Positions 3,147 through 32,095 of a DNA stretch of 57,317 nt are shown one piece after another. The position numbers and the translations under genes are program-made. Source of the DNA: Terriglobales bacterium (GTDB lineage Bacteria; Acidobacteriota; Terriglobia; Terriglobales; Acidobacteriaceae); NCBI GenBank assembly GCA_030038475.1, contig JASHOU010000033.1, positions 1 through 57,317 of the forward strand, given 5' to 3'. Under the pieces are notes generated by a model that worked only from the letters and a program-made list of their open reading frames with translations, had not been told where the DNA came from and searched no databases. Position 1 is the stretch's first letter. Each line of letters opens with the position of its first letter.

Positions 3147-4397
3147 ATGACCATTGCTGAATTGAAAGAAAAAAACATTACCGAGCTGACCAAGATCGCC
3201 CGATCCTTGGAACTGCCGGGCGCCAGCGGACTCCGCAAACAGGATCTCATCTTCAAAATCCTGCAGGCGCAAAGTGAAAAAGAAGGACACATCTTCGCCG
3301 AAGGTGTGCTGGAGATCCTCCCTGACGGCTACGGCTTTCTGCGCTCGCCCGACTACAACTATCTGCCGGGGCCGGACGACATTTATGTGTCGCCGTCGCA
3401 GATTCGCAAGTTCGACCTGAAGACCGGCGATACCATCAGCGGGCAAGTGCGTCCGCCGCACGAGGGCGAAAAGTATTTTGCGCTGGTCAAGATCGAGGCG
3501 GTCAATTTCGAGTCGCCCGACGAGGCGCGCAACAAGATTCTGTTCGACAACCTGACGCCGTTGTATCCACAGGAGCGGATCAAGCTCGAAACCGTGCGCG
3601 AAAACATCAGCGCGCGCGTGATGGATCTGCTCACCCCGCTCGGCAAAGGCCAGCGCGGGCTGATCGTCTCTCCGCCGCGCGCCGGCAAGACCATGCTGCT
3701 GCAGAACGTCGCAAACTCGATTACTGCGAACCATCCCGAAGTCGTGCTTATGGTGCTGCTCATCGACGAGCGCCCGGAAGAAGTTACCGACATGCAGCGC
3801 TCGGTGAAGGGCGAAGTCATCTCCTCGACCTTCGACGAGCCCGCCGCCCGCCACGTGCAGGTTGCGGAAATGGTGATCGAAAAGGCGAAGAGGTTGGTCG
3901 AACACAAACGGGATGTTGTTATCCTGCTCGATTCCATCACGCGCTTGGCGCGAGCTTATAACACCATAGTTCCGCCTTCGGGCAAAGTGCTCTCCGGCGG
4001 CGTCGATTCGAACGCCTTGCAGCGTCCCAAGCGGTTTTTCGGATCCGCGCGCAACATTGAAGAGGGCGGCTCTTTGACGATTATCGCCACGGCTTTGATC
4101 GACACCGGTTCCCGCATGGACGATGTGATCTTCGAAGAATTCAAAGGCACCGGCAATTCGGAAATTATTCTCGATCGCAAGCTGGTGGATAAGCGAACCT
4201 TCCCGGCCATCGACATCCAGCGCTCAGGCACGCGAAAAGAAGAGCTGCTGATTCCCAAGGAAGATTTGCAGCGCATCTGGGTGCTGCGAAAAGTGCTGAA
4301 CCCGTTGTCGCCGGTCGAAGCCATGGAGTTGCTGATCGAGCGCCTGGCCAAAGCAGCAAGCAACAGCGAGTTCCTGGCCAAGATGAGCCAACTGTAA
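3147..4397 (+). CDS. rho: Transcription termination factor Rho
   Basis: Hexameric RNA-dependent ATPase/translocase that ends transcription at unstructured C-rich RNA. The 416-residue product has the standard layout: N-terminal Rho-N helix bundle, then the cold-shock-like RNA-binding domain ([20 protein letters not shown]), then the ATPase core with SPPRAGKT Walker A at about 176-183. [10 protein letters not shown] and [13 protein letters not shown] are also present. It has no large insertion of the kind seen in Actinobacteria or Bacteroidetes. Its 3' end is intact, but a second damaged copy of its last ~110 bases lies at 5119-5230, beyond the inserted toxin-antitoxin pair. Confidence 0.98.
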
Positions 4398-4427
4398 GAT
4401 TGGACGGTTTTGTGGTAGCGGCTCTCT
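4294..4427 (+). repeat. Direct repeat, copy 1 (rho 3' end, functional)
   Basis: The stretch from GCTGAACCCGTTGTCGCC through the rho stop and the following TAAGATTG...GTGGTAGCGG recurs at 5119-5250 in the same orientation. Copy 1 is inside the intact rho frame and extends about 30 bases past the stop. The pair encloses the MntA/HepT genes. Confidence 0.85.
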
Positions 4428-4454
4428 GCTTTGCCACAATCGGATGAGGACGCC

Positions 4455-4763
4455 GTGAACCCCTTGATCGAGGAAAAGCGTCAAGAACTGGAGCGCGTGT
4501 GCCGTCGCCATCGCGTGCATCGCATTGAGCTGTTCGGATCGGCTGCCCGCCCGGACTTCGACCCCGCACACAGCGATCTGGACTTCATCGTAAGTTTCCA
4601 GGAGTTGGCTCTCGACCAATACGCGGACGCCTACTTCGGACTGCTGGAAGATCTGCAAGCGCTCTTTCAGCGTCCGGTCGATCTGGTAGTCGCCTCGGCC
4701 ATTCAAAACCCCTATTTCCGCGAGGCTGTCGATTCCAGCAAGACGCTCGTCTATGCGGATTGA
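4455..4763 (+). CDS. mntA: MntA-type minimal nucleotidyltransferase antitoxin
   Basis: About 102 residues with the pol-beta nucleotidyltransferase core: FGSAARPDF...SDLDF gives GS at 28-29 and DxD at 41 and 43, and PVDLVV supplies the third acidic residue. Known MntA proteins neutralise the HepT toxin by AMPylating a tyrosine next to its HEPN catalytic motif. GTG at 4455 is preferred because GATGAGGA lies five bases upstream; a TTG at 4431 is an alternative. It overlaps hepT by 11 bases, the classical antitoxin-first arrangement. The pair sits between two copies of the rho tail, implying insertion by recombination. Confidence 0.85.
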   Translation: MNPLIEEKRQELERVCRRHRVHRIELFGSAARPDFDPAHSDLDFIVSFQELALDQYADAYFGLLEDLQALFQRPVDLVVASAIQNPYFREAVDSSKTLVYAD

Positions 4764-22707: not shown

Positions 22708-23964
22708 ATGCCCACTTCATACTCTGCGTGGTCAGATATTGGCGCAAGATGTCTGCTGCTTGCAGCCATCTTGGGGTTGCTGGTGACTGCTTCTCAGCTG
22801 GTTGAGGCACAAACGCTGACAACGCTCTACAGCTTCCAGGGGATCCCGGACGGGGCCGTTCCCCTCGCGGGCGTAGTTCTCGACAGCGAGGGTAATCTCT
22901 ACGGTACAACTTCGTATGGCGGAACCATTGGCGGCGGTTCCGGCTGCGGGACGGTTTTTGAGGTGACTCCCAGCGGCTCTGAAAAGATGTCCTACAGCAT
23001 TACGTGCAATCCCTATTATGCAGGCTTGATCCGCGATGACGAGGGAAATCTTTACGGCACAACTGGGGGCGGTGGCACCGGCGCCTGTTTTGATGGCTAT
23101 GGTTGCGGCACGGTGTTTAAGATCTCCGAGGGCGGCGTAGAGACGGTTTTGTACAGCTTCACCGGCGGTACGGATGGGGTATCTCCGAGCGCTGGCTTGG
23201 TCATGGATGATCGGGGCAACCTCTACGGCACCACAAATCTCGGTGGGGGCTCAGGCTGCGGCGGTCAAGGTTGCGGTACTGTGTTCAAGGTTACTGCAAC
23301 CGGAGCGGAAACGGTGCTCTACAGATTTGCCGGCGGGACCGACGCGTACGAGCCCATGGGGGGTCAGCTAGCCCTCGATAGGGAAGGCAACCTCTACGGT
23401 GTAACCGAGTTCGGTGGCGCCTACGGCGTTGGCGCCCTATTCAAAGTCACCCCAACCGGCATTGAGACGATAGTCCACAGCTTTGCCGAAGTGCCGGACG
23501 GCAACTTTCCCTTCGGCACGCTGCTCATTAACGGAGAAGGATATCTTTATGGCACAACAATGAGTGGGGGTGCCCATGGCCGGGGAACGGTTTTTGAGGT
23601 AACTCCATCCGGCGAAGAAAGAGTGCTCTACAGCTTCTGTCCAGCCGGGGAGCCTCCTTGCCCCGACGGCCAAGGTCCCTTGGGAGGTTTGGTGCGCGAT
23701 CTGTATGGCAATTTCTACGGCACAACCCAATATGGCGGCGCTTCGGGCGAATGGGGCACGGTGTTCAAGCTGACTCCAGGCGGTGTGGAAACCGTGCTTT
23801 ACAGCTTCACATTCGGCGCGGACGGGGTGGAGCCTAACGGGGGCCTGGTTCTCGATAGGCATGGCAATCTCTACGGCACAACCTCTGCGGGCGGCGGTTC
23901 CGGTTGTAACGGCTTCGGCTGCGGCACGGTGTTTAAGCTGACCAATAAGTTGATCCCCCCTTAG
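22708..23964 (+). CDS. Secreted GloVer-repeat protein
   Basis: A 418-residue protein with an N-terminal signal segment (CLLLAAILGLLVTASQLVEAQ). Seven tandem repeats of about 50 residues follow. Each carries GNLYGTT or a close variant, a Gly-rich loop often with GCGTVF, then a V.PSG.E.VLYSF strand. This is the GloVer choice-of-anchor repeat family and it probably folds as a beta-propeller-like surface protein. Cysteine pairs in several repeats could form disulfides. No enzyme motif is seen. It is abundant in Acidobacteria; its role is unknown. Confidence 0.85.
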   Translation: MPTSYSAWSDIGARCLLLAAILGLLVTASQLVEAQTLTTLYSFQGIPDGAVPLAGVVLDSEGNLYGTTSYGGTIGGGSGCGTVFEVTPSGSEKMSYSITCNPYYAGLIRDDEGNLYGTTGGGGTGACFDGYGCGTVFKISEGGVETVLYSFTGGTDGVSPSAGLVMDDRGNLYGTTNLGGGSGCGGQGCGTVFKVTATGAETVLYRFAGGTDAYEPMGGQLALDREGNLYGVTEFGGAYGVGALFKVTPTGIETIVHSFAEVPDGNFPFGTLLINGEGYLYGTTMSGGAHGRGTVFEVTPSGEERVLYSFCPAGEPPCPDGQGPLGGLVRDLYGNFYGTTQYGGASGEWGTVFKLTPGGVETVLYSFTFGADGVEPNGGLVLDRHGNLYGTTSAGGGSGCNGFGCGTVFKLTNKLIPP

Positions 23965-24125
23965 TGGCCTCGTGGTCGTGTACTTGTGCATAGTGTGGAA
24001 CGTTTGTGGCCCGCCCCATGAGACGGGTTCGGGGATTTCTGCGGCTCATCACATGCCCGAGCTGATCACTTCTCCTTCGTGTTATCCTTCTCGCCGTTTC
24101 GTCTAATCGTCGCCTCGGAGAAACT

Positions 24126-25373
24126 ATGTCGATAAGCCGTCGCGGATTCTTAGGCTCCGCCATCGCCGCATCGTTCGCCACCACGCTGAATACGAACCTG
24201 TATGCACAGGAACTACCTCTTCCCGCAAATCCCTTCGGCTCAGGCAAGCGCCCCATCATCATCTGCGCCCACAACGGAGTGAATTATCTCGACGATGCCT
24301 TCGCTTTCCTGAAAAACGGCGGCGATACGCTCGACGCCGCTCTCCGCGTGGTCAAAGGTCCCGAAGACGATCCGAACGACGATTCCGTCGGCCTGGGCGG
24401 CCTTCCCAACGAAGAGTGTGTGGTCGAACTCGACGCCTGCTGCATGCACGGCCCGACGCGCCGCGCCGGATCGGTGGGCGGCGTACGTAACATCAAAAAC
24501 GTTTCGCTCGTGTCGAAAGCAGTGATGGAGCACACCGGCCACGTCATGCTGGTCGGCGAAGGCGCTGAACGATTTGCCGTTGCGGTCGGTTTTCCACGCG
24601 AAAACCTTCTCACCGATCGCTCGCGCAAAATCTGGCTGCTGTGGAAAGAATACAACTCGACCGACGACTGGTGGGGTCCGGGACTGGCCGACCCGAACTG
24701 GAAGCCGCCTGCATTGCCATCGGCCACGCCGCAATCCGAGCTCTGGGAACGGCGCATCCAGCGGCTCGCAGAGGGGGCGGCACAACTGGGCATCGAACCT
24801 GAATTTCGCATGGCTGCTATCCGGCGCGTTCTGTCGCCGCCGACCGGCACTATCCACTGCTCGGCTCTCAACGACAAAGGAGAAATTTCCGGCTGCACCA
24901 CCACCAGCGGTCTCGCCTTCAAACTCCCCGGACGAGTCGGCGATTCGCCGATCATCGGCGCCGGCTGCTACACCGATCAGGATGTGGGCTCGGCCGGCGC
25001 GACTGGCGCAGGAGAAGAAAATATCAAGGTCGCCGGAGCCCATACCATCGTGGAGAATATGCGCCGCGGCATGTCGCCGCTCGAAGCCGGCATGGATGCG
25101 CTGCAGCGCATCGTTCGCAATTACAACCACGACATGACCAAGCTGAATTTCCTCGACATGACCTACTACGTTCTGCGCAAGGATGGCGCCTACGCGGGCG
25201 TGTCGCTGTGGGAAGGCTATTCCGAGAAAGAGAAGCACTCGATCGCCGTGCATGACGGAATCCGGCGCATGGAAACTACGGTGGCATTATTCAAGGGCCC
25301 GTCACACGAGTTTCCGCCGTTTCCGGTCAAGGTGCCGGACGAGCTGAAGAAGAATTCGGTGTACGTGAAGTGA
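24126..25373 (+). CDS. Tat-exported N4-(beta-N-acetylglucosaminyl)-L-asparaginase
   Basis: Cleaves the GlcNAc-asparagine bond of N-glycoproteins. The 415-residue product has a twin-arginine signal (SISRRGFLGSAIAASFATTL). The Ntn-hydrolase core begins about residue 40, with CAHNGVNYLDDAF and GGDTLDAAL. The nucleophile threonine is in GTIHCSAL at about residue 242. CTTTSGLAFKLPGRVGDSPIIGAGCY follows. Self-cleavage before this threonine would give alpha and beta subunits. It lies 3.2 kb from the GH20 hexosaminidase on the same strand, which supports a role in periplasmic glycoprotein catabolism. Confidence 0.88.
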   Translation: MSISRRGFLGSAIAASFATTLNTNLYAQELPLPANPFGSGKRPIIICAHNGVNYLDDAFAFLKNGGDTLDAALRVVKGPEDDPNDDSVGLGGLPNEECVVELDACCMHGPTRRAGSVGGVRNIKNVSLVSKAVMEHTGHVMLVGEGAERFAVAVGFPRENLLTDRSRKIWLLWKEYNSTDDWWGPGLADPNWKPPALPSATPQSELWERRIQRLAEGAAQLGIEPEFRMAAIRRVLSPPTGTIHCSALNDKGEISGCTTTSGLAFKLPGRVGDSPIIGAGCYTDQDVGSAGATGAGEENIKVAGAHTIVENMRRGMSPLEAGMDALQRIVRNYNHDMTKLNFLDMTYYVLRKDGAYAGVSLWEGYSEKEKHSIAVHDGIRRMETTVALFKGPSHEFPPFPVKVPDELKKNSVYVK

Positions 25374-25537
25374 GGGCTACGATGGCGTAGGTCAAATGAC
25401 GGCTACGAACCATGGGCTTCTAGTTATGGCCTGCTGGCTCTAGGCTGAGAAGTTTGAGCAAACTGGCCGCTCGCGGCTCATAGCTCGGCGCTCGAAGCAA
25501 CTGTTTGCCCAACGGAATCCGCCCGCTATCTAAACTT

Positions 25538-25573
25538 GGTAGTGGCTGAATTTGGATCGCCTCAGCCACTACC
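25538..25573 (+). promoter_or_regulatory. Twelve-base-pair hairpin before the HPF-sigma fusion
   Basis: GGTAGTGGCTGA at 25538-25549 is perfectly complementary to TCAGCCACTACC at 25562-25573 around a twelve-base loop. It lies 92 bases upstream of the fusion gene start. A TACAAT -10-like box follows near 25606-25611. The hairpin could be a terminator for upstream transcripts or a binding site upstream of the promoter. Confidence 0.5.
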
Positions 25574-25665
25574 CTAAACTTCGCTTCGTCGATTCTGAAC
25601 GGGTGTACAATCAGTTTAGGGATCGCAGCTTCACGGAGTTTCTTCTCCGCGTTCGAGGCTCGAAG

Positions 25666-26718
25666 ATGAACGTTCACGTCAGTTACAAGGTTCACAAGAT
25701 TCCCGGCATCGAAAAAGAAATCAGTCACCAGATTGAAAAGATTCAGAAGCGCCTTCAGGTTTTCCGGCCCGAATTGGTTCATCTAAAAGCTGTCGTCGAC
25801 CAGAATTCCGCGCGCGAAGGCACGCAGGTCGCTTTGAATCTGCGCCTGCCGTCAGGCCAGTTGTCCGCGCAGAAAAAAGCGCGCAGCGCCTCGGCCGCCA
25901 TCAAGGCCGCCTTTGACGAGCTTCTCCAGCAGATCGGTCGCCATAAGGAGTTGCTCCGCTCCAGCCACAAATGGCGGCGCTGGCGCCGAGGTTCGAAGGA
26001 TTCTCCGGAACCCGGCGTCCCGTTCGAAAAGACAATGGCGGTAATGCTTCCGCCGATCATCTCCGCCGATGACATCGGTTCCTACGTGAATGCGAATCTT
26101 TCGCGGCTCGAGCGTTTCGTGGAGCGCGAGCTCTACTTCCGCCGTGCTGACGAGGAGACTTCCCTTTCTGACGACGATCTTTCTACTCCCGAAGTCGTGA
26201 ATGAAGTGATCGCCCGTGCTCTCGGCGACCACGACCGTCCGGAAAAGCTGACGCTCGAACCGTGGCTTTACCATCTTGCCCTGCAAGCCATGAACGAAAT
26301 GACGGCGCGCCTTCAGGAGTTGGACTCGCCTGCCTATGTGCACGTGGAAGAGAGCCGCCGGCGGCAAAACGTGCAGGCCTCCGACGAGGTCAGCTTGCAA
26401 TTCCATCAGCCCGATGAGGATTGGACTCGCGAAAGCGCCATCCCCGATCGCCGCGTGTCGACCCCGGAACAGGACGCATATTCTGACGAAATCATCTCGT
26501 TGATGCAAACCGCGCTCCGCGGCGCTGACCGCACCGACCGCGAAGCTTTTCTGCTTTATGCCATCGAGGGCTTTTCCCTCGACGAAATTGCCGTCATCAC
26601 CGGACGGCGCCAGGAGGCGGTACGCGAATCCGTCCAACGCGCGCGCGACTGCGTCCGCAGCGCGCCTTCCATGGCCCACGAATTCCACCATAACCTCTTA
26701 GTCAAAACTCGAATCTAA
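25666..26718 (+). CDS. HPF/RaiA ribosome-hibernation domain fused to ECF-sigma-like domains
   Basis: A 350-residue protein. Residues 1-105 are an HPF/YfiA fold: MNVHVSYKV, then GIEKEISHQIEKIQKRL, VALNLRLPSGQLSAQ and AIKAAFDELLQQIGRHKELLR. After a basic linker, residues about 130-215 resemble sigma region 2 (YVNANLSRLERFVEREL...EVVNEVIARAL...PWLYHLALQAMN). Residues about 286-332 resemble sigma region 4 (REAFLLYAIEGFSLDEIAVITG...VQRARD). The fusion suggests a protein able to sit in the ribosome mRNA/tRNA channel and also bind promoters or polymerase. It starts a two-gene unit with the eRF1-like protein. The in-frame TTG at 25552 is less likely. Confidence 0.75.
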   Translation: MNVHVSYKVHKIPGIEKEISHQIEKIQKRLQVFRPELVHLKAVVDQNSAREGTQVALNLRLPSGQLSAQKKARSASAAIKAAFDELLQQIGRHKELLRSSHKWRRWRRGSKDSPEPGVPFEKTMAVMLPPIISADDIGSYVNANLSRLERFVERELYFRRADEETSLSDDDLSTPEVVNEVIARALGDHDRPEKLTLEPWLYHLALQAMNEMTARLQELDSPAYVHVEESRRRQNVQASDEVSLQFHQPDEDWTRESAIPDRRVSTPEQDAYSDEIISLMQTALRGADRTDREAFLLYAIEGFSLDEIAVITGRRQEAVRESVQRARDCVRSAPSMAHEFHHNLLVKTRI

Positions 26719-26736
26719 CTGGTTCAAGGAGTCGAG

Positions 26737-27939
26737 ATGATGACCCGGAATGAAATCCGTGAATTGGCGGCTTTTCAAGCCGACGAAAGCAAAGGCACAT
26801 ACGCCCTCTCGTTTTACTTTCAACCCGATCCTCCTCAGGATCGCTCTCATCGCCGTGAGGCAATCGTCGCCAAAGATGTCGTGAAGCAGGCGCTGAAAAG
26901 TGCTGCCGCCAGCGGCAAAAATGGATCGCTGCACGCCGACCTCGATCGCATTCTCGATATCGCGACCAACCTGCGCGGCAACGCACGGGGACGGGCAGTT
27001 TTCGCCTGCTCGGCCCAAAAGTTTTGGAAGGAATACGAACTCCCGCCGCATCTCGGGATCACCACCCACATTTATCTTCAGCCGCGCTTTGAGTTGAAAC
27101 CGCTGGCCGCGTTGCTCGGCGCCCAGCCCGCACTCTGCGTCGCCGTGGTCGATCGCCAACGTGCGCGTTTTTTCGACCTGCGCCTCGACGATCTGCACGA
27201 GCAGGGAGCATTGGTTCACATGCTCTCGCGCAGTGCTTCCAGCTACGGCTTTAAAGGTTATGAGGGCGGACATGCGGAACGCCGCATCTCCGAAGAAGCC
27301 ATCCAGCATTTCAAAGCGATTTCAGAACGCCTGTTGACGGATTTCGAGAGAGGTATTTGGGAGCGGCTCATCATCGGTTGCCACGATGTCAACTGGCCTG
27401 AGTTGGAGTCGCATCTTCATCCCTACGTGAAGCGGCGCATCATTGGCCGGTTCTCGGCCGACGTTGCTAGCGTCTCGAACGAGGAGATTCGCCAGCGCTC
27501 CGACGCGATTCTGAAGCAATGGATCGAGCAACGCGCGGAAACCAAGGTCAACGAAACGGTGGATCTGGCGAAGTCGAACGGACGCGGCGTCACCGGCCTG
27601 CGCCGCGTCCTGCGCGCGCTCGAAGCAGGAGAAGTGCAGGCCTTGTTTCTCAACGAGAATTATTCGGCTCGCGCCGTTGAGTGCACCAACTGCGGGCACC
27701 TCGACCCGCACATCGTCGCGACGTGCGTGGTATGCGGTAAGCCCACGCGCGAACTCGCCGATGTCTGCGATGCGATCATTCCCATCGCCATCCGTCGCGA
27801 CATTGAACTGTTTTACCTCAAGGATAACGAAGCCCTGGATCGCGCCGGCAGCATCGCCGCCCTGCTGCGTTTCCGCTCCGACCAAACCTCAGGACAGAGA
27901 TCAGGCCAAAGCTCAGGAGAGATCGCGGCGGCTTCGTAA
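26737..27939 (+). CDS. eRF1-like bacterial release-factor-fold protein (baeRF type)
   Basis: A 400-residue protein with the layout of archaeal/eukaryotic release factor 1. Domain 2-like features are ALCVAVVDRQRARFFDL followed by YEGGHAERRISEEAIQHFKAI (about 175-195), where the GGQ of true release factors is GGH at 177-179. Domain 3-like features are LRRVLRALEAGEVQALFLNE and a zinc knuckle CTNCGH...CVVCGK with four Cys at about 316, 319, 330 and 333. GTCGAG and AAGGAG lie upstream of the ATGATG start. It is 18 bases downstream of the HPF-sigma fusion and probably cotranscribed, pointing to ribosome hibernation or rescue. Catalytic peptide release is doubtful without Gln. Confidence 0.8.
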   Translation: MMTRNEIRELAAFQADESKGTYALSFYFQPDPPQDRSHRREAIVAKDVVKQALKSAAASGKNGSLHADLDRILDIATNLRGNARGRAVFACSAQKFWKEYELPPHLGITTHIYLQPRFELKPLAALLGAQPALCVAVVDRQRARFFDLRLDDLHEQGALVHMLSRSASSYGFKGYEGGHAERRISEEAIQHFKAISERLLTDFERGIWERLIIGCHDVNWPELESHLHPYVKRRIIGRFSADVASVSNEEIRQRSDAILKQWIEQRAETKVNETVDLAKSNGRGVTGLRRVLRALEAGEVQALFLNENYSARAVECTNCGHLDPHIVATCVVCGKPTRELADVCDAIIPIAIRRDIELFYLKDNEALDRAGSIAALLRFRSDQTSGQRSGQSSGEIAAAS

Positions 27940-28488
27940 AGTTAAATCCGGTTCTCTGCCGTCCGGCCAACTCGGTACGCCTGCATCCAGCTGAATCTTT
28001 GCGCTCTTGGCGAAACCGCACGCCATCCGCCAGAATCCGCCGATTAACAATAGCTCTACCAACTCATCGCGCGCAAAGGCCTTCTCCAGCGTCGCCCACG
28101 TCGCGGGAGTGACTTCAGTGTGTTCGTGCATCTCGTCAGCCAGATCGATCGCCGCGCGATCGACCTCGCTGTATGCGTGGCATTGCTTCGGATCGCGTAC
28201 GCCCAGGATCTCGGCGTCAGGCATTCCCAGCTCGCGTGAAATGCGAACGTGATTGCAAAACACATACTCGGAGCCTGTGCGCCAGCCCATCCGCAGAATT
28301 ATGAGTTCACGCGTGCGAGCCGGCACTTTGTTGTGAAAGAACAGAGCGTCGATTCCCGCATAGAAGCCGGCCGTAGCCGATGGATTGTTAAGCAGCGCGC
28401 GCCATATGTTCGACGTAGCCAGCCAACGCTCGATCCCGAGCTTCTCGCCGAGCCGCGCCGATTCGTCAATCGATACCAACGGAAGCAT
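27913..28488 (-). CDS. Carboxymuconolactone decarboxylase/AhpD-like protein
   Basis: A 191-residue all-helical protein of the CMD/AhpD superfamily. It has ALFFHNKVPARTRELIILRMGWRTGSEYVFCNHVRISRELG, containing the ExxxCxH motif (EYVFCNH) near 90-96. The single Cys suggests a peroxidatic or peroxide-linked role, but many members are unassigned. Its 3' end overlaps the eRF1-like gene by 27 bases in convergent orientation. Confidence 0.8.
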   Translation of the reverse strand: MLPLVSIDESARLGEKLGIERWLATSNIWRALLNNPSATAGFYAGIDALFFHNKVPARTRELIILRMGWRTGSEYVFCNHVRISRELGMPDAEILGVRDPKQCHAYSEVDRAAIDLADEMHEHTEVTPATWATLEKAFARDELVELLLIGGFWRMACGFAKSAKIQLDAGVPSWPDGREPDLTLRSRRDLS

Positions 28489-28591
28489 ACATTCAATCCT
28501 TCAAGGCTTGCATACGCCCGATCTTAGAGTGCCCATTGATGCACAGAAGATGACAAACCGAACCACGCTCCTCATCGACCTTGCCATCAGG

Positions 28592-28828
28592 TTAGTTGGA
28601 AGTCCCCCGAATCTTAAACAAGAAGTACCCGACAAAGAAAATACCACCGAGAAAATACGCTGCGACCTCGTCCCAAAACACTCTCGGTTCTTTTTCGCGG
28701 GAAACCCAGCCGCTGAAACGAACCCAAACCTTGCCAGAATATGCAAAAAGCACAGCCCCACAAATGAAGATGAGGCCGACTGTCAAGAAAACATTCGGCG
28801 GTCTTAAAAGGGAGTCCAAGTCAGGCAT
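28592..28828 (-). CDS. Small two-helix membrane protein
   Basis: A 78-residue protein from ATG 28828, with AAGGAG nine bases upstream on the minus strand. Two hydrophobic helices are seen: NVFLTVGLIFICGAVLFAYSG and EVAAYFLGGIFFVGYFLFKI. Between them is a basic loop VWVRFSGWVSREKEPRV. No family is recognised. Confidence 0.55.
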   Translation of the reverse strand: MPDLDSLLRPPNVFLTVGLIFICGAVLFAYSGKVWVRFSGWVSREKEPRVFWDEVAAYFLGGIFFVGYFLFKIRGTSN

Positions 28829-29238
28829 CAACAGCATCTCCTTTCTGATGCTTGGGCAAATCCCCAACGGTCTCTACTGCGCCGAACGTACCTAATACAG
28901 ACCCGAGCCAGCAGCTTAACCCCCGCAATCCTGCATGAGAAGCGTGGATTTTCAGTGTATCTCAATCACATCCGCGAGCGAAAATCCCATAAATCACATC
29001 CCGGCAAGCCGAACAATTCTCGATACATTTCCATAATATACGTGCACAAATGTATTTACACTCAAATACATATATTAAGCGAACAGAATGCGAAATTGTT
29101 TCACGTGAAACATTTTGTACATATATCTTGTGTACATACAATTATTCGGCAGGAATGGGGAGTGAACCCGCCAGCGTGAGCCGGAGCCCCTGAATTGCCG
29201 CGCCGAAGATCTGGTGAATTGTCGCGCCCTGAGCGAGA
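28829..29238. other. AT-rich intergenic region containing parS
   Basis: This 410-base gap has an unusual AT-rich core (about 28950-29160). The palindrome ATACATTT...AAATGTAT lies around 29020-29056. TGTA/TACA-rich units (CTCAAATACATATATT, TGTACATATATCTTGTGTACAT) repeat through the core. The parS site is listed separately. No protein-coding frame is convincing. The AT-rich core stands out strongly against the surrounding high-GC coding DNA. Confidence 0.6.
29097..29112. promoter_or_regulatory. parS site (ParB centromere-binding sequence)
   Basis: TGTTTCACGTGAAACA is a perfect 16-base palindrome. It matches the universal bacterial chromosomal parS consensus TGTTNCACGTGAAACA. ParB binds it and loads onto flanking DNA to segregate the origin region. 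Its presence suggests this window lies fairly near oriC. Confidence 0.88.
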
Positions 29239-29877
29239 ATGAACCTTATGATCCATCAGATCATCCCCGTCGGCCCGTTGCAGTGCAACTGCTCCATCAT
29301 TGGCGACGAGACCACGCGTGAGGCCATGGTCATTGACCCGGGCGACGATATTGAAGACGTTCTCGCCATCATCCGCCAGCATAAGTTGCAGGTGAAGCAG
29401 ATCGTCATCACTCACGCACACATCGACCACATCGGCGGAGCGATGAAGCTGCGGGCGGCAACCGGCGCGCCGATCCTGCTCAATCAAAATGACTATGCAT
29501 TGCTGAAGATGCTTGATGTGCAAGCTACGTGGATTGGGGTGGCTGCGCCGGGCGAAGTCTCCATCGAAGCGAGCATCGGCGATGGAGAATCGCTCGAAAC
29601 CGGGAAACTCAGGGCGAATGTTCTGCACACGCCCGGCCATACCGAGGGCAGCGTCTGCCTCTATTTCCCTGCGGAGAAGTTGCTGATCGCCGGCGATACA
29701 CTCTTTGCCCGCAGCATCGGACGCACCGACCTGCCTGGAGGATCGTTCGAGAAGATCATGCGCTCGCTGCACGAGCGCGTTCTTGCGCTGCCTGACGAGA
29801 CCGTCGTTATTCCCGGCCACGGGCCTCAAACAACGATAGGAATCGAAAGGGAAGAGAATCCGTTTCTGAAGGGCTAG
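29239..29877 (+). CDS. Metallo-beta-lactamase-fold hydrolase (glyoxalase II-like)
   Basis: A 212-residue zinc hydrolase. THAHIDHIGG gives the HxHxDH metal motif near 60-67. HTPGHTEGSVCLYF supplies the third-metal His, AGDTLF the bridging Asp and PGHGPQTTIG the last His. The short length and GGSFEKIMRSLHERVLAL helix fit the YcbL/glyoxalase II-like group. The substrate is uncertain. Confidence 0.85.
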   Translation: MNLMIHQIIPVGPLQCNCSIIGDETTREAMVIDPGDDIEDVLAIIRQHKLQVKQIVITHAHIDHIGGAMKLRAATGAPILLNQNDYALLKMLDVQATWIGVAAPGEVSIEASIGDGESLETGKLRANVLHTPGHTEGSVCLYFPAEKLLIAGDTLFARSIGRTDLPGGSFEKIMRSLHERVLALPDETVVIPGHGPQTTIGIEREENPFLKG

Positions 29878-30015
29878 GTCTTAGGTCTCAGGAAAACCGT
29901 TCCTCGGACGAGTGCGTCCAGCTTTGCGCACGCGGCAGCCTTGCGCTTACGGCGACAGCGGAACTGGTGTTCTTAGGTATACCCGCGACCTAGGATCTGA
30001 GACCTAAGACCTGAG
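29875..30015. repeat. Palindromic intergenic repeat, AGGTCT family
   Basis: TAGGTCTTAGGTCTCAGG (29875-29892) and the inverted CTGAGACCTAAGACCT (29997-30012) enclose about 104 bases between the convergent MBL and secG genes. A related single-sided copy built of iterated AGGTCTCAGGTGTCAGG lies at about 37333-37370 between nadK and lysA. This looks like a REP-type or MITE-like element. Confidence 0.7.
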
Positions 30016-30017
30016 CT

Positions 30018-30374
30018 TTATTTCTTTGCCGGCGCCTGGTTTTGCGGGACCGTCGGCGGAGCGGCAGGTTTCGGGCTTGCCGGCTGTGATTTTGTCTGCG
30101 ACGGGTGCACTCCCGAAAGCACCGAGGTGGGGCCGGTTCGCCGTGCGGCGAAAATCGAAAGCGTGATCGAGGTGACCATAAAAATGATCGCCGACCAGGT
30201 CGTGGCGCGCGACAGAGCCGAGGCCGCGCCGCGCGGGCCAAATGCCGTCTGGCTGCCCTGGCCTCCAAAGGCCGCAGCCAGATCACCGCTCTTACCGCTC
30301 TGCAGCAGCACGACGGCGATTAGGAAAAAGCAGACGATCACGTGAACGATCGTAATGAGAACTGAAATCCACAT
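30018..30374 (-). CDS. secG: Preprotein translocase subunit SecG
   Basis: A 118-residue small SecYEG subunit that speeds protein export. Two membrane helices (VLITIVHVIVCFFLIAVVLLQ and TTWSAIIFMVTSITLSIFAAR) flank the conserved loop GKSGDLAAAFGGQGSQTAFGPRG. The Pro/Ala/Lys-rich tail of about 40 residues is longer than the E. coli protein. It lies 64 bases downstream of tRNA-Leu on the same strand. Confidence 0.95.
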   Translation of the reverse strand: MWISVLITIVHVIVCFFLIAVVLLQSGKSGDLAAAFGGQGSQTAFGPRGAASALSRATTWSAIIFMVTSITLSIFAARRTGPTSVLSGVHPSQTKSQPASPKPAAPPTVPQNQAPAKK

Positions 30375-30438
30375 ATAGAAAAACTCTCCAAGGAGCCGAA
30401 GCTCAGGTTCGGCGATCTCTTCGTTTCAAGATTAATAC

Positions 30439-30523
30439 TGGTGCGGAAGGGGGGATTTGAACCCCCACGCCTTTCGGCGCCACCCCCTCAAGATGGTGTG
30501 TCTGCCAGTTCCACCACTTCCGC
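30439..30523 (-). tRNA. tRNA-Leu (anticodon GAG)
   Basis: Read on the minus strand, 85 bases fold as a class II tRNA. GCGGAAG pairs with CTTCCGC, then comes the D-arm with GTGGAACTGGCAGAC. The anticodon loop is TTGAGGG with anticodon GAG. A long variable arm (GGCGCCGAAAGGCGT) and the T-arm GGGGGTTCAAATCCCCC follow. The 3' ACCA is encoded. It lies just upstream of secG; the order secG then tRNA-Leu(GAG) occurs in E. coli. Confidence 0.95.
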
Positions 30524-30739
30524 TTTACGAGCAATGATCGTGACAGGCAATGATCATCAGGGCCAGCGGCCGATCTTCGATCTTGCGCCTGAGTCTCTAT
30601 AACGATACACGGTCAAACGAGGCGGTTCAAGTTCACGGTTGAAGGTTATTCGACGCTCGAGAGCCGGTTTTCCAGCCGAGTATTTGCGCGTCCAACCAGC
30701 GTGCATTTATTGTGGGATGCGCTCATTGTCCTTGCCTCT

Positions 30740-32095
30740 ATGAATTCTCGCATTTTTTTCTGGTCGCTCACCTCGGCGCTCGCCGGGTTTTTGTTCGGTT
30801 TTGACACGGTCGTGATCTCGGGCGCAGAAAAGACGATTCAAGCGCTGTGGGGGCTCAGCCCCGGACTGCATGGAATTGCCATGGCCTCGGCGCTCTACGG
30901 AACCATCGTCGGTTCGCTGATCGGAGGCTGGCCCACAGACCGATTCGGGCGCAAGGCCACGCTGCTGTGGATTGGCGTCCTTTACTTTGTTGGCGCGGTT
31001 GGCTCGGCGCTGGCGACCAATGTTTCCGTGTTTATTGCGGCACGGGTAATCGGAGGGCTGGGCATTGGCATCTCGACGGTGGCGGCGCCGCTGTACATTT
31101 CGGAGATTGCGCCGCCGAAACAGCGCGGGCGGCTCGCCGGCATGTTTCAGTTCAATATTGTTTTTGGCATTCTGATCGCTTTCCTTTCAAATTGGCTGCT
31201 CGCCGGAATCGGCGAAAGCGCGTGGCGCTGGATGCTGGGCGTGGCGGCGTTTCCGTCGCTGCTGTATGCCCTGCTTTGTTTTGGAATACCCGAAAGCCCG
31301 CGCTGGCTGCTGGTGAGAAAAGGCGATCGCGAAAGCGGATTGAAAATTTTGCGGCGCATTCAACCGGAAGCCTCCGAGGCGGAGGTGCAGGCGGAGGCGA
31401 ACGAGATCATGGCTGGCTCGTCAGAGCGAGTATCGTCAGAGGGAACGTCGTCGCAGGGAGCGTCGGGCGGCCATTTCTGGACGCGCGGTCTGCGCAAGCC
31501 GATTTTGCTGGCGATCCTGATTGCATTTTTCAATCAACTTTCGGGCATCAACGCCATTCTCTATTTTGCGCCGCGCATCTTCGAACTGACCGGATTGGCG
31601 GCGAAGGCCGCGTTGCTGCAATCGGTCGGCATTGGCATTACGAATCTGGTTTTCACGTTCGTCGGCCTGTGGCTCATTGACCGGTTGGGCCGACGGACGC
31701 TGCTTTACATCGGTTCGTTCGGCTACATTGGCTCGCTGGGCCTGGTGGCGTGGGCGTTTTTTACCGAGCATTTTGCGATCGTGCCGGCGTGCATTTTTGC
31801 GTTCATTGCCGCGCACGCCATCGGCCAAGGAGCGGTGATCTGGGTGTTTATCTCCGAGATATTTCCCAACCGTGAGCGCGCGGAGGGCCAGGCGCTGGGC
31901 AGCTTCACGCATTGGGTCTTTGCGGCGTTGCTCACGACGTTCTTTCCGAAGATGGTTGCGGTGTTTCCGGCCGGGTATATCTTTTCGTTCTTTGCCGGGA
32001 TGATGGTGTTGCAACTCATCTGGGTGAAGACGATGGTTCCGGAGACGAAGGGCGTGCCACTGGAGCAGATTCAGAAGCAGCTGGGGATTGAGTAG
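30740..32095 (+). CDS. Sugar porter-family MFS transporter
   Basis: A 451-residue transporter with twelve membrane segments. Sugar-porter motifs are present: DRFGRKA in loop 2-3, PLYISEIAPPKQRGRL after helix 4, PESPRWLL and RL.RR.LL in the second half, NQLSGINAILYFAPRIF, and VPETKGVPLEQI at the end. It probably imports a monosaccharide by proton symport. ATG at 30740 is preferred over a GTG at 30701. The 3' end overlaps the convergent next gene by 80 bases. Confidence 0.9.
   Translation: MNSRIFFWSLTSALAGFLFGFDTVVISGAEKTIQALWGLSPGLHGIAMASALYGTIVGSLIGGWPTDRFGRKATLLWIGVLYFVGAVGSALATNVSVFIAARVIGGLGIGISTVAAPLYISEIAPPKQRGRLAGMFQFNIVFGILIAFLSNWLLAGIGESAWRWMLGVAAFPSLLYALLCFGIPESPRWLLVRKGDRESGLKILRRIQPEASEAEVQAEANEIMAGSSERVSSEGTSSQGASGGHFWTRGLRKPILLAILIAFFNQLSGINAILYFAPRIFELTGLAAKAALLQSVGIGITNLVFTFVGLWLIDRLGRRTLLYIGSFGYIGSLGLVAWAFFTEHFAIVPACIFAFIAAHAIGQGAVIWVFISEIFPNRERAEGQALGSFTHWVFAALLTTFFPKMVAVFPAGYIFSFFAGMMVLQLIWVKTMVPETKGVPLEQIQKQLGIE

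Follow-up and report, generated by a model that had tools for sequence, protein, structure and literature searches.

The window analysed here is a 57,317-nucleotide stretch of DNA (positions 1-57,317 of contig JASHOU010000033.1, assembly GCA_030038475.1) from a Terriglobales bacterium (Acidobacteriota), described as a soil bacterium. It carries a two-gene operon in which the first gene joins an HPF/RaiA ribosome-hibernation domain to a module with the folds of sigma factor regions 2 and 4, and the second encodes an eRF1-like protein of the baeRF type. The locus comprises the following features:

25600..25611, + strand: conserved CGGGTGTACAAT box upstream of the operon, -10-like and containing TACAAT
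25623..25663, + strand: leader hairpin upstream of the HPF-sigma start, pairing GAGG (likely Shine-Dalgarno), from the alignment
25666..26718, + strand: HPF-sigma fusion gene, 350 residues
25666..25980, + strand: HPF/RaiA (S30AE) domain, residues 1-105
26056..26325, + strand: sigma2-like domain, residues 131-220
26398..26448, + strand: QPDE linker motif (QFHQPDEDWTRESAIPD) between sigma2 and sigma4, residues 245-261
26464..26664, + strand: sigma4-like helix-turn-helix domain, residues 267-333
26719..26736, + strand: intergenic gap of 18 bases, from the sequence
26737..27939, + strand: gene for the Balon-like baeRF_family10 protein, 400 residues (Pfam 6.8e-17; Foldseek)
27265..27273, + strand: GGH at the release-factor GGQ position, residues 177-179
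27682..27735, + strand: four-Cys zinc knuckle (C316, C319, C330, C333), invariant in 19 of 19 aligned proteins

The fusion and the adjoining baeRF-type gene had been noticed in a preliminary description of this DNA, and Pfam matches, fold models and recurrence in other genomes confirm both. The S30AE domain scores 29.2 bits against a Pfam cut-off of 23.7 and misses the NCBIfam yfiA equivalog cut-off (27.7 versus 40.9 bits); in the aligned fusions, an HKxxLR motif is invariant in its last helix. The predicted structure places an HPF fold at the N terminus and sigma2 and sigma4 folds in the C-terminal half, as that description had expected. The S30AE_C dimerisation domain of long HPF is not among the Pfam matches with E values up to 10, a listing from which HMMER filters can drop very weak matches. 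A 195-residue long-HPF-like protein (L191) is also encoded in the same genome, and several genomes of our group f1, this one among them, keep such a protein beside the fusion. In 13 of the 14 genomes of the family-level group f2, all S30AE matches fall in the fusion; the remaining genome has no S30AE match.

The fusion is matched in 37 of 41 near genomes, some of the matches being partial or confined to the sigma part. Of 396 genomes sampled from the phylum, 137 match the profile at 1e-8; among the matches listed, most cover the sigma4 part only, and 22 places in 21 genomes span both the HPF and sigma parts (counted by eye). Of 299 genomes sampled from the class, 49 match at 1e-25, 19 with the sigma part and 30 with the HPF part only (by eye; for genome G445 the sigma4 part was found in a separate look at the locus). 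Once identical proteins were removed, the distinct Acidobacteriota set held 76 fusions and 10 HPF-only orthologues, together with 10 partial proteins that are excluded from the 76. These HPF-alone orthologues are the only form in which separate halves were met. In a tree of the HPF domain, which has few columns and many weak forks, the HPF-only proteins are partly nested among fused forms, and this nesting suggests that their lineages lost the sigma part more than once.

Relatives of the fusion also occur on plasmids. A tblastn search with an Acidobacteriota fusion as query returned 21 plasmid records, all proteobacterial by organism name, of which 19 are covered over at least 80% of the query at 22-28% identity. 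Where annotation exists at the matching place (17 records), 13 genes are named sigma-70, sigma-28, sigma-like helix-turn-helix or FliA, and 4 are hypothetical. Both S30AE and a sigma-4 family appear among the Pfam matches of all four relatives tested, for the most part under the cut-off; the exceptions are S30AE in L186 and Sigma70_r4 in L182. Nine plasmid regions were inspected, eight from the fused-match list plus L189, which came from another search and is without annotation; the other eight contain stress genes, namely Hsp20, FtsH, AAA ATPase, HdeD, YfdX, GroEL or DnaK. Genes typical of the transmissible locus of stress tolerance surround several plasmid relatives, unlike the locus described here: the Hsp20/FtsH/AAA/HdeD/YfdX set was not seen by eye in the frames at 23000-31000. 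A search for plasmid modules with sigma and linker but no HPF gave 25 records, of which 19 were the fused matches already listed, 2 were Piscirickettsia genes annotated RpoE and 4 lay outside the inspected set; such modules were rejected as a separate class. One relative, L184 (NC_012811.1, 867374-868369), is from a megaplasmid of Methylorubrum extorquens AM1, is matched over 98% of the query and lies near a predicted yfdX1 heat-resistance gene; this is a species that serves for work on PhyR/NepR (PMC4814048). A sigma-24-like factor, which may or may not be such a protein, is counted among the hallmarks of a stress island in PMC8290217; in the passages covered of PMC8407380 there is no mention of ribosomes or of a sigma factor belonging to the island.

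The sigma half looks repurposed and is probably not an ordinary extracytoplasmic function (ECF) sigma factor, because its contact positions are eroded and its linker is the piece most conserved between distant lineages. In TIGR02937 the protein scores 42.8 bits and just misses the cut-off of 42.9; of six relatives, three lie above it (L137 with 63.6 bits), L149 is level and two fall below. The Pfam PhyR_sigma-like domain is passed (29.0 versus 27 bits), and no receiver domain is among the protein's Pfam matches. For comparison we aligned 56 fused Acidobacteriota proteins and 8 plasmid modules with 21 canonical ECFs (15 from the same genome, 6 from the phylum), leaving out the primary sigma factor L108 and L124-L136 (L124 gave no hit, L125 was excluded by choice). 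The region 2.2 Gln is present in 20 of 21 canonical ECFs versus 0/56 fusions and 0/8 plasmid modules, which have Asp or Asn instead; the region 2.3 Asn is found in 17 of 21 versus none of either fused set. Mean net charge falls from +4.0 in the canonical proteins to +0.8 in the fusions and -1.1 in the plasmid modules across regions 2.3-2.4, and from +3.6 to +0.75 and -1.25 in the recognition helix. These two residues and the basic side chains of 2.4 and 4.2 we take to be the core- and promoter-contact residues.

The linker behaves in the opposite way. A Q[PA][DG][ED] pattern occurs in 44 of 56 Acidobacteriota fusions and 8 of 8 plasmid fusions and is absent from all 21 canonical ECFs. When distant Acidobacteriota fusions are compared with plasmid fusions, identity reaches 57% in the linker against 24-38% in the five remaining segments; among canonical ECFs themselves the linker is the least conserved segment (17%), so that conservation across the deepest splits looks inverted. 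With hhalign, the QPDE stretch aligns with the finger region of the primary sigma factor of the same genome, which from its sequence we take to be RpoD. That the linker is a copy of the sigma finger was nevertheless rejected: in 26 of 64 related sequences (by eye) the best placement has the spacing of the primary sigma factor, 40 residues ahead of the sigma4 anchor, but the likeness is not significant against shuffles, with 4 of 64 sequences at p<0.01 (one of these elsewhere in the sequence) versus 0 of 21 controls, and the 40-residue spacing also occurs in one canonical ECF.

The second protein passes Pfam PF18854 (baeRF_family10) with 62.5 bits against a cut-off of 27.1 (6.8e-17). Its model (pLDDT 81) finds Msmeg1130 Balon as best Foldseek match (8v9j_z, E 1.9e-21; 8v9l_z, TM 0.71/0.75), followed by aRF1 and Balon; the NCBIfam Balon equivalog cut-offs are missed (44, 35 and 32.7 bits versus 480, 320 and 330). 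The GGH and the four-Cys knuckle seen earlier are borne out by the alignment: the loop reads [GA]GH, with G178, H179 and all four Cys invariant in 19 of 19 partners, and the conserved family 10 loop Gln (PMC6514570) is His in each. Four more distant baeRFs (L137, L165, L172, L175) have other loops, none of them GGQ, and a NIKS motif was not found in the partner's translation. By its predicted fold the partner resembles a Balon-type hibernation factor more closely than a release or rescue factor; a release role, like the ribosome-rescue role offered in the preliminary description, is disfavoured by the replacement of the loop Gln with His and by the Balon-like fold.

Where 700 bp or more of downstream sequence was available (74 fusions), a baeRF gene follows in 37 cases: 34 of 40 in the group resembling this locus, 0 of 14 in f2 and 3 of 20 elsewhere (the grouping is our own). 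Printed distances of 19-82 correspond to 15-78 bases from stop to start, and distances of 317 and 324 were printed where a small gene intervenes. A baeRF gene also lies beside one of the 10 HPF-only genes (L165). Other genes directly 3' of the fusion, read from sequence, are a class I/II aminotransferase-like gene at L138, L140 and L142 (other Acidobacteriota families) and a lytic-transglycosylase/LysM-like gene at L022, L030 and L032 (group f2). HPF-baeRF neighbourhoods and the conserved family 10 Gln were reported by Burroughs and Aravind (PMC6514570); Helena-Bueno et al. (PMC10901736) describe Balon in the A site, raiA as its most frequent gene neighbour and sigma70 genes among its others. 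The pair itself is therefore not new. Overall, the earlier interpretation stands for the fusion and its pairing and is adjusted as to the Balon type of the partner, the novelty of the pair and the class of the sigma half.

Upstream of the operon, all 17 aligned genus-level leaders share an identical GGTGTACAAT. Inspection by eye of an alignment of 18 upstream regions showed no conserved -35 element or ECF-type pair, and the leader of this operon has the TACAAT box instead; there is thus no sign of autoregulation, and an ECF-type autoregulatory circuit was rejected. The leader hairpin is paired in 95.9% of cells across 17 sequences (outer helix 100%). Two inner pairs show double changes, a number reached by 112 of 500 shuffles; single-sequence energy z, computed for four sequences, is modest at -0.7 to -1.6, and Rfam gave no match in 25000-28500. 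From the alignment, the hairpin could mask the ribosome-binding site, for instance as a thermometer.

Genes of the anti-sigma type are rare beside the fusion. In two f63 species a protein of 95 or 97 residues with H-x3-C-x2-C lies between fusion and baeRF; when same-strand frames up to 3 kb away were scanned, a single case was convincing (L137/L085), joined by the second in another species of the same genus, and zinc-finger anti-sigma genes were not found beside most fusions. A STAS gene follows the fusion at three other f63 loci (L149 and L151 by Pfam, L176 by eye), a class of gene that was not searched systematically. These five loci, all in f63, suggest that one lineage at least has ties to anti-sigma biology. 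No anti-sigma-type frame was recognised by eye beside the pair described here. At L149, the STAS gene and then an Hsp20-like frame (by eye; about 4000-4360 and 4396-4734) lie downstream of a second fusion copy, and the same genome (G416) also carries the copy with the zinc-finger gene and baeRF.

We consider it an even call that the operon encodes two ribosome-hibernation proteins, the HPF bearing a sigma module that docks on protein, with RNA polymerase as likeliest partner. The two genes would form one hibernation unit: the HPF domain would occupy the small subunit's mRNA/tRNA channel, and its Balon-like partner would enter the A site, where its loop, lacking the catalytic Gln, would block instead of releasing. 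The sigma-derived half would be an inherited docking module of two sigma folds and the QPDE linker, largely without promoter-reading chemistry and used to bind protein. RNA polymerase is the likeliest candidate because the piece best conserved across phyla sits in the stretch between sigma2 and sigma4 with which an ECF sigma factor threads the polymerase; an anti-sigma factor is the next. Transcription might then be silenced, or held beside sleeping ribosomes. A more specific version, which we hold only tentatively, is a dual hibernation factor in which HPF silences the ribosome while a promoter-blind sigma module docks on RNA polymerase through its conserved linker, both machines being held together or inactive in dormancy, and in which the sigma-annotated relatives do the same in mobile proteobacterial stress-tolerance islands. 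Ribosome dormancy and transcription are commonly regarded as connected by signals such as ppGpp. A sigma half that binds RNA polymerase or an anti-sigma factor would link them physically and directly, and the ribosome-transcription connection proposed in the preliminary description remains a fair hypothesis. In that case a group of sigma-annotated proteins on stress-tolerance plasmids would probably act on ribosomes, which would call for their re-annotation and is testable by simple biochemistry.

Several observations weigh against a docking module. The sigma part is dispensable, given 10 HPF-alone orthologues, one of them followed by a baeRF gene, and 37 of 74 fusions have no adjoining baeRF. 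Loss of the region 2.2 Gln in 56 of 56 could itself weaken core binding; several Arg are kept in the recognition helix of the protein, and fused and canonical proteins overlap in their range of net charge, the related rows inflating p-values. The QPDE pattern is absent from 12 of 56 fused proteins, linker identity between the protein's own group and the other two sets (37%/39%) does not exceed that of the first sigma2 helix (39%/39%), and shuffles of single sequences lend the resemblance to the primary-sigma finger no significance. The model has a pTM of 0.33 and two-domain sigma matches exceed 13 in root-mean-square deviation, so the domain arrangement is not fixed by it. Finally, ribosome binding by both proteins is inferred from family knowledge, which backs the ribosome half well; the docking partner and its effect are inference only.

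The sigma half might instead be a mere structural or ribosome-binding extension, comparable to the dimerisation domain of long HPF and with no link to transcription. The fusion as sole HPF in f2, the missing long-HPF C-terminal domain and the nesting of HPF-alone orthologues, as expected of a dispensable tail, all fit; yet two phyla retain both sigma folds and, in most cases, the linker motif, several f1 genomes have a long-HPF-like protein as well, and the anti-sigma-like and STAS neighbours would be coincidence, which leaves this explanation doubtful. Those neighbours would suit a PhyR-like anti-anti-sigma adapter, whose sigma-like half captures an anti-sigma factor and frees a real ECF sigma factor under the control of ribosome binding by the HPF half. 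Their rarity and restriction to f63 within the scope of the searches above, the lack of a receiver domain and the absence of an anti-sigma-type frame beside the pair (by eye) make such an adapter unlikely. A genuine sigma factor gated by ribosomes, tethered to idle ones through its HPF half and acting on stress genes once released, would account for the strong ECF scores kept in some clades (L137), the sigma names given to 13 of 17 annotated plasmid copies and their place among stress genes; it is hard to reconcile with the loss of the 2.2 Gln and 2.3 Asn from all 56 fusions, the largely lost basic residues of 2.4 and 4.2, and a leader with a TACAAT box and no conserved ECF-type promoter, and we judge it more unlikely still. 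That two genes were joined by an assembly or annotation artefact is ruled out, to near certainty, by the 76 distinct fused proteins and the 19 well-covered plasmid records.

In the literature covered (titles and abstract openings, in one search for 10 of 32 papers, with few subscription papers) no description of an HPF-sigma fusion was found, and its parts can be set against known systems. It shares sigma2 and sigma4 folds and a TIGR02937 score about threshold with ECF sigma factors, and differs in its eroded contact positions and in the HPF domain in front. The sigma2/sigma4-like folds of PhyR serve without a promoter-reading role; the fusion matches the PhyR_sigma-like family and has similar folds, but where PhyR has a receiver domain it has an HPF domain and the QPDE linker. 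With HPF/RaiA and long HPF it shares the N-terminal S30AE fold, the sigma2-linker-sigma4 module standing in place of the long-HPF C-terminal domain. The partner resembles Balon/Msmeg1130/Rv2629 in its aRF1-like fold, lack of GGQ and adjoining HPF gene, and differs in being baeRF_family10 by Pfam, with a [GA]GH loop and a four-Cys knuckle. HibA, an HPF-CBS fusion whose CBS module is reported to contact the large subunit (PMC13324472), demonstrates the gain of a new module by an HPF domain; it likewise joins an unrelated module to HPF, but is archaeal, whereas the present fusion is bacterial and its module sigma-derived. If the sigma half blocks RNA polymerase, HelD, a precedent for RNA polymerase hibernation (PMC11102965), would be a possible analogue by function.
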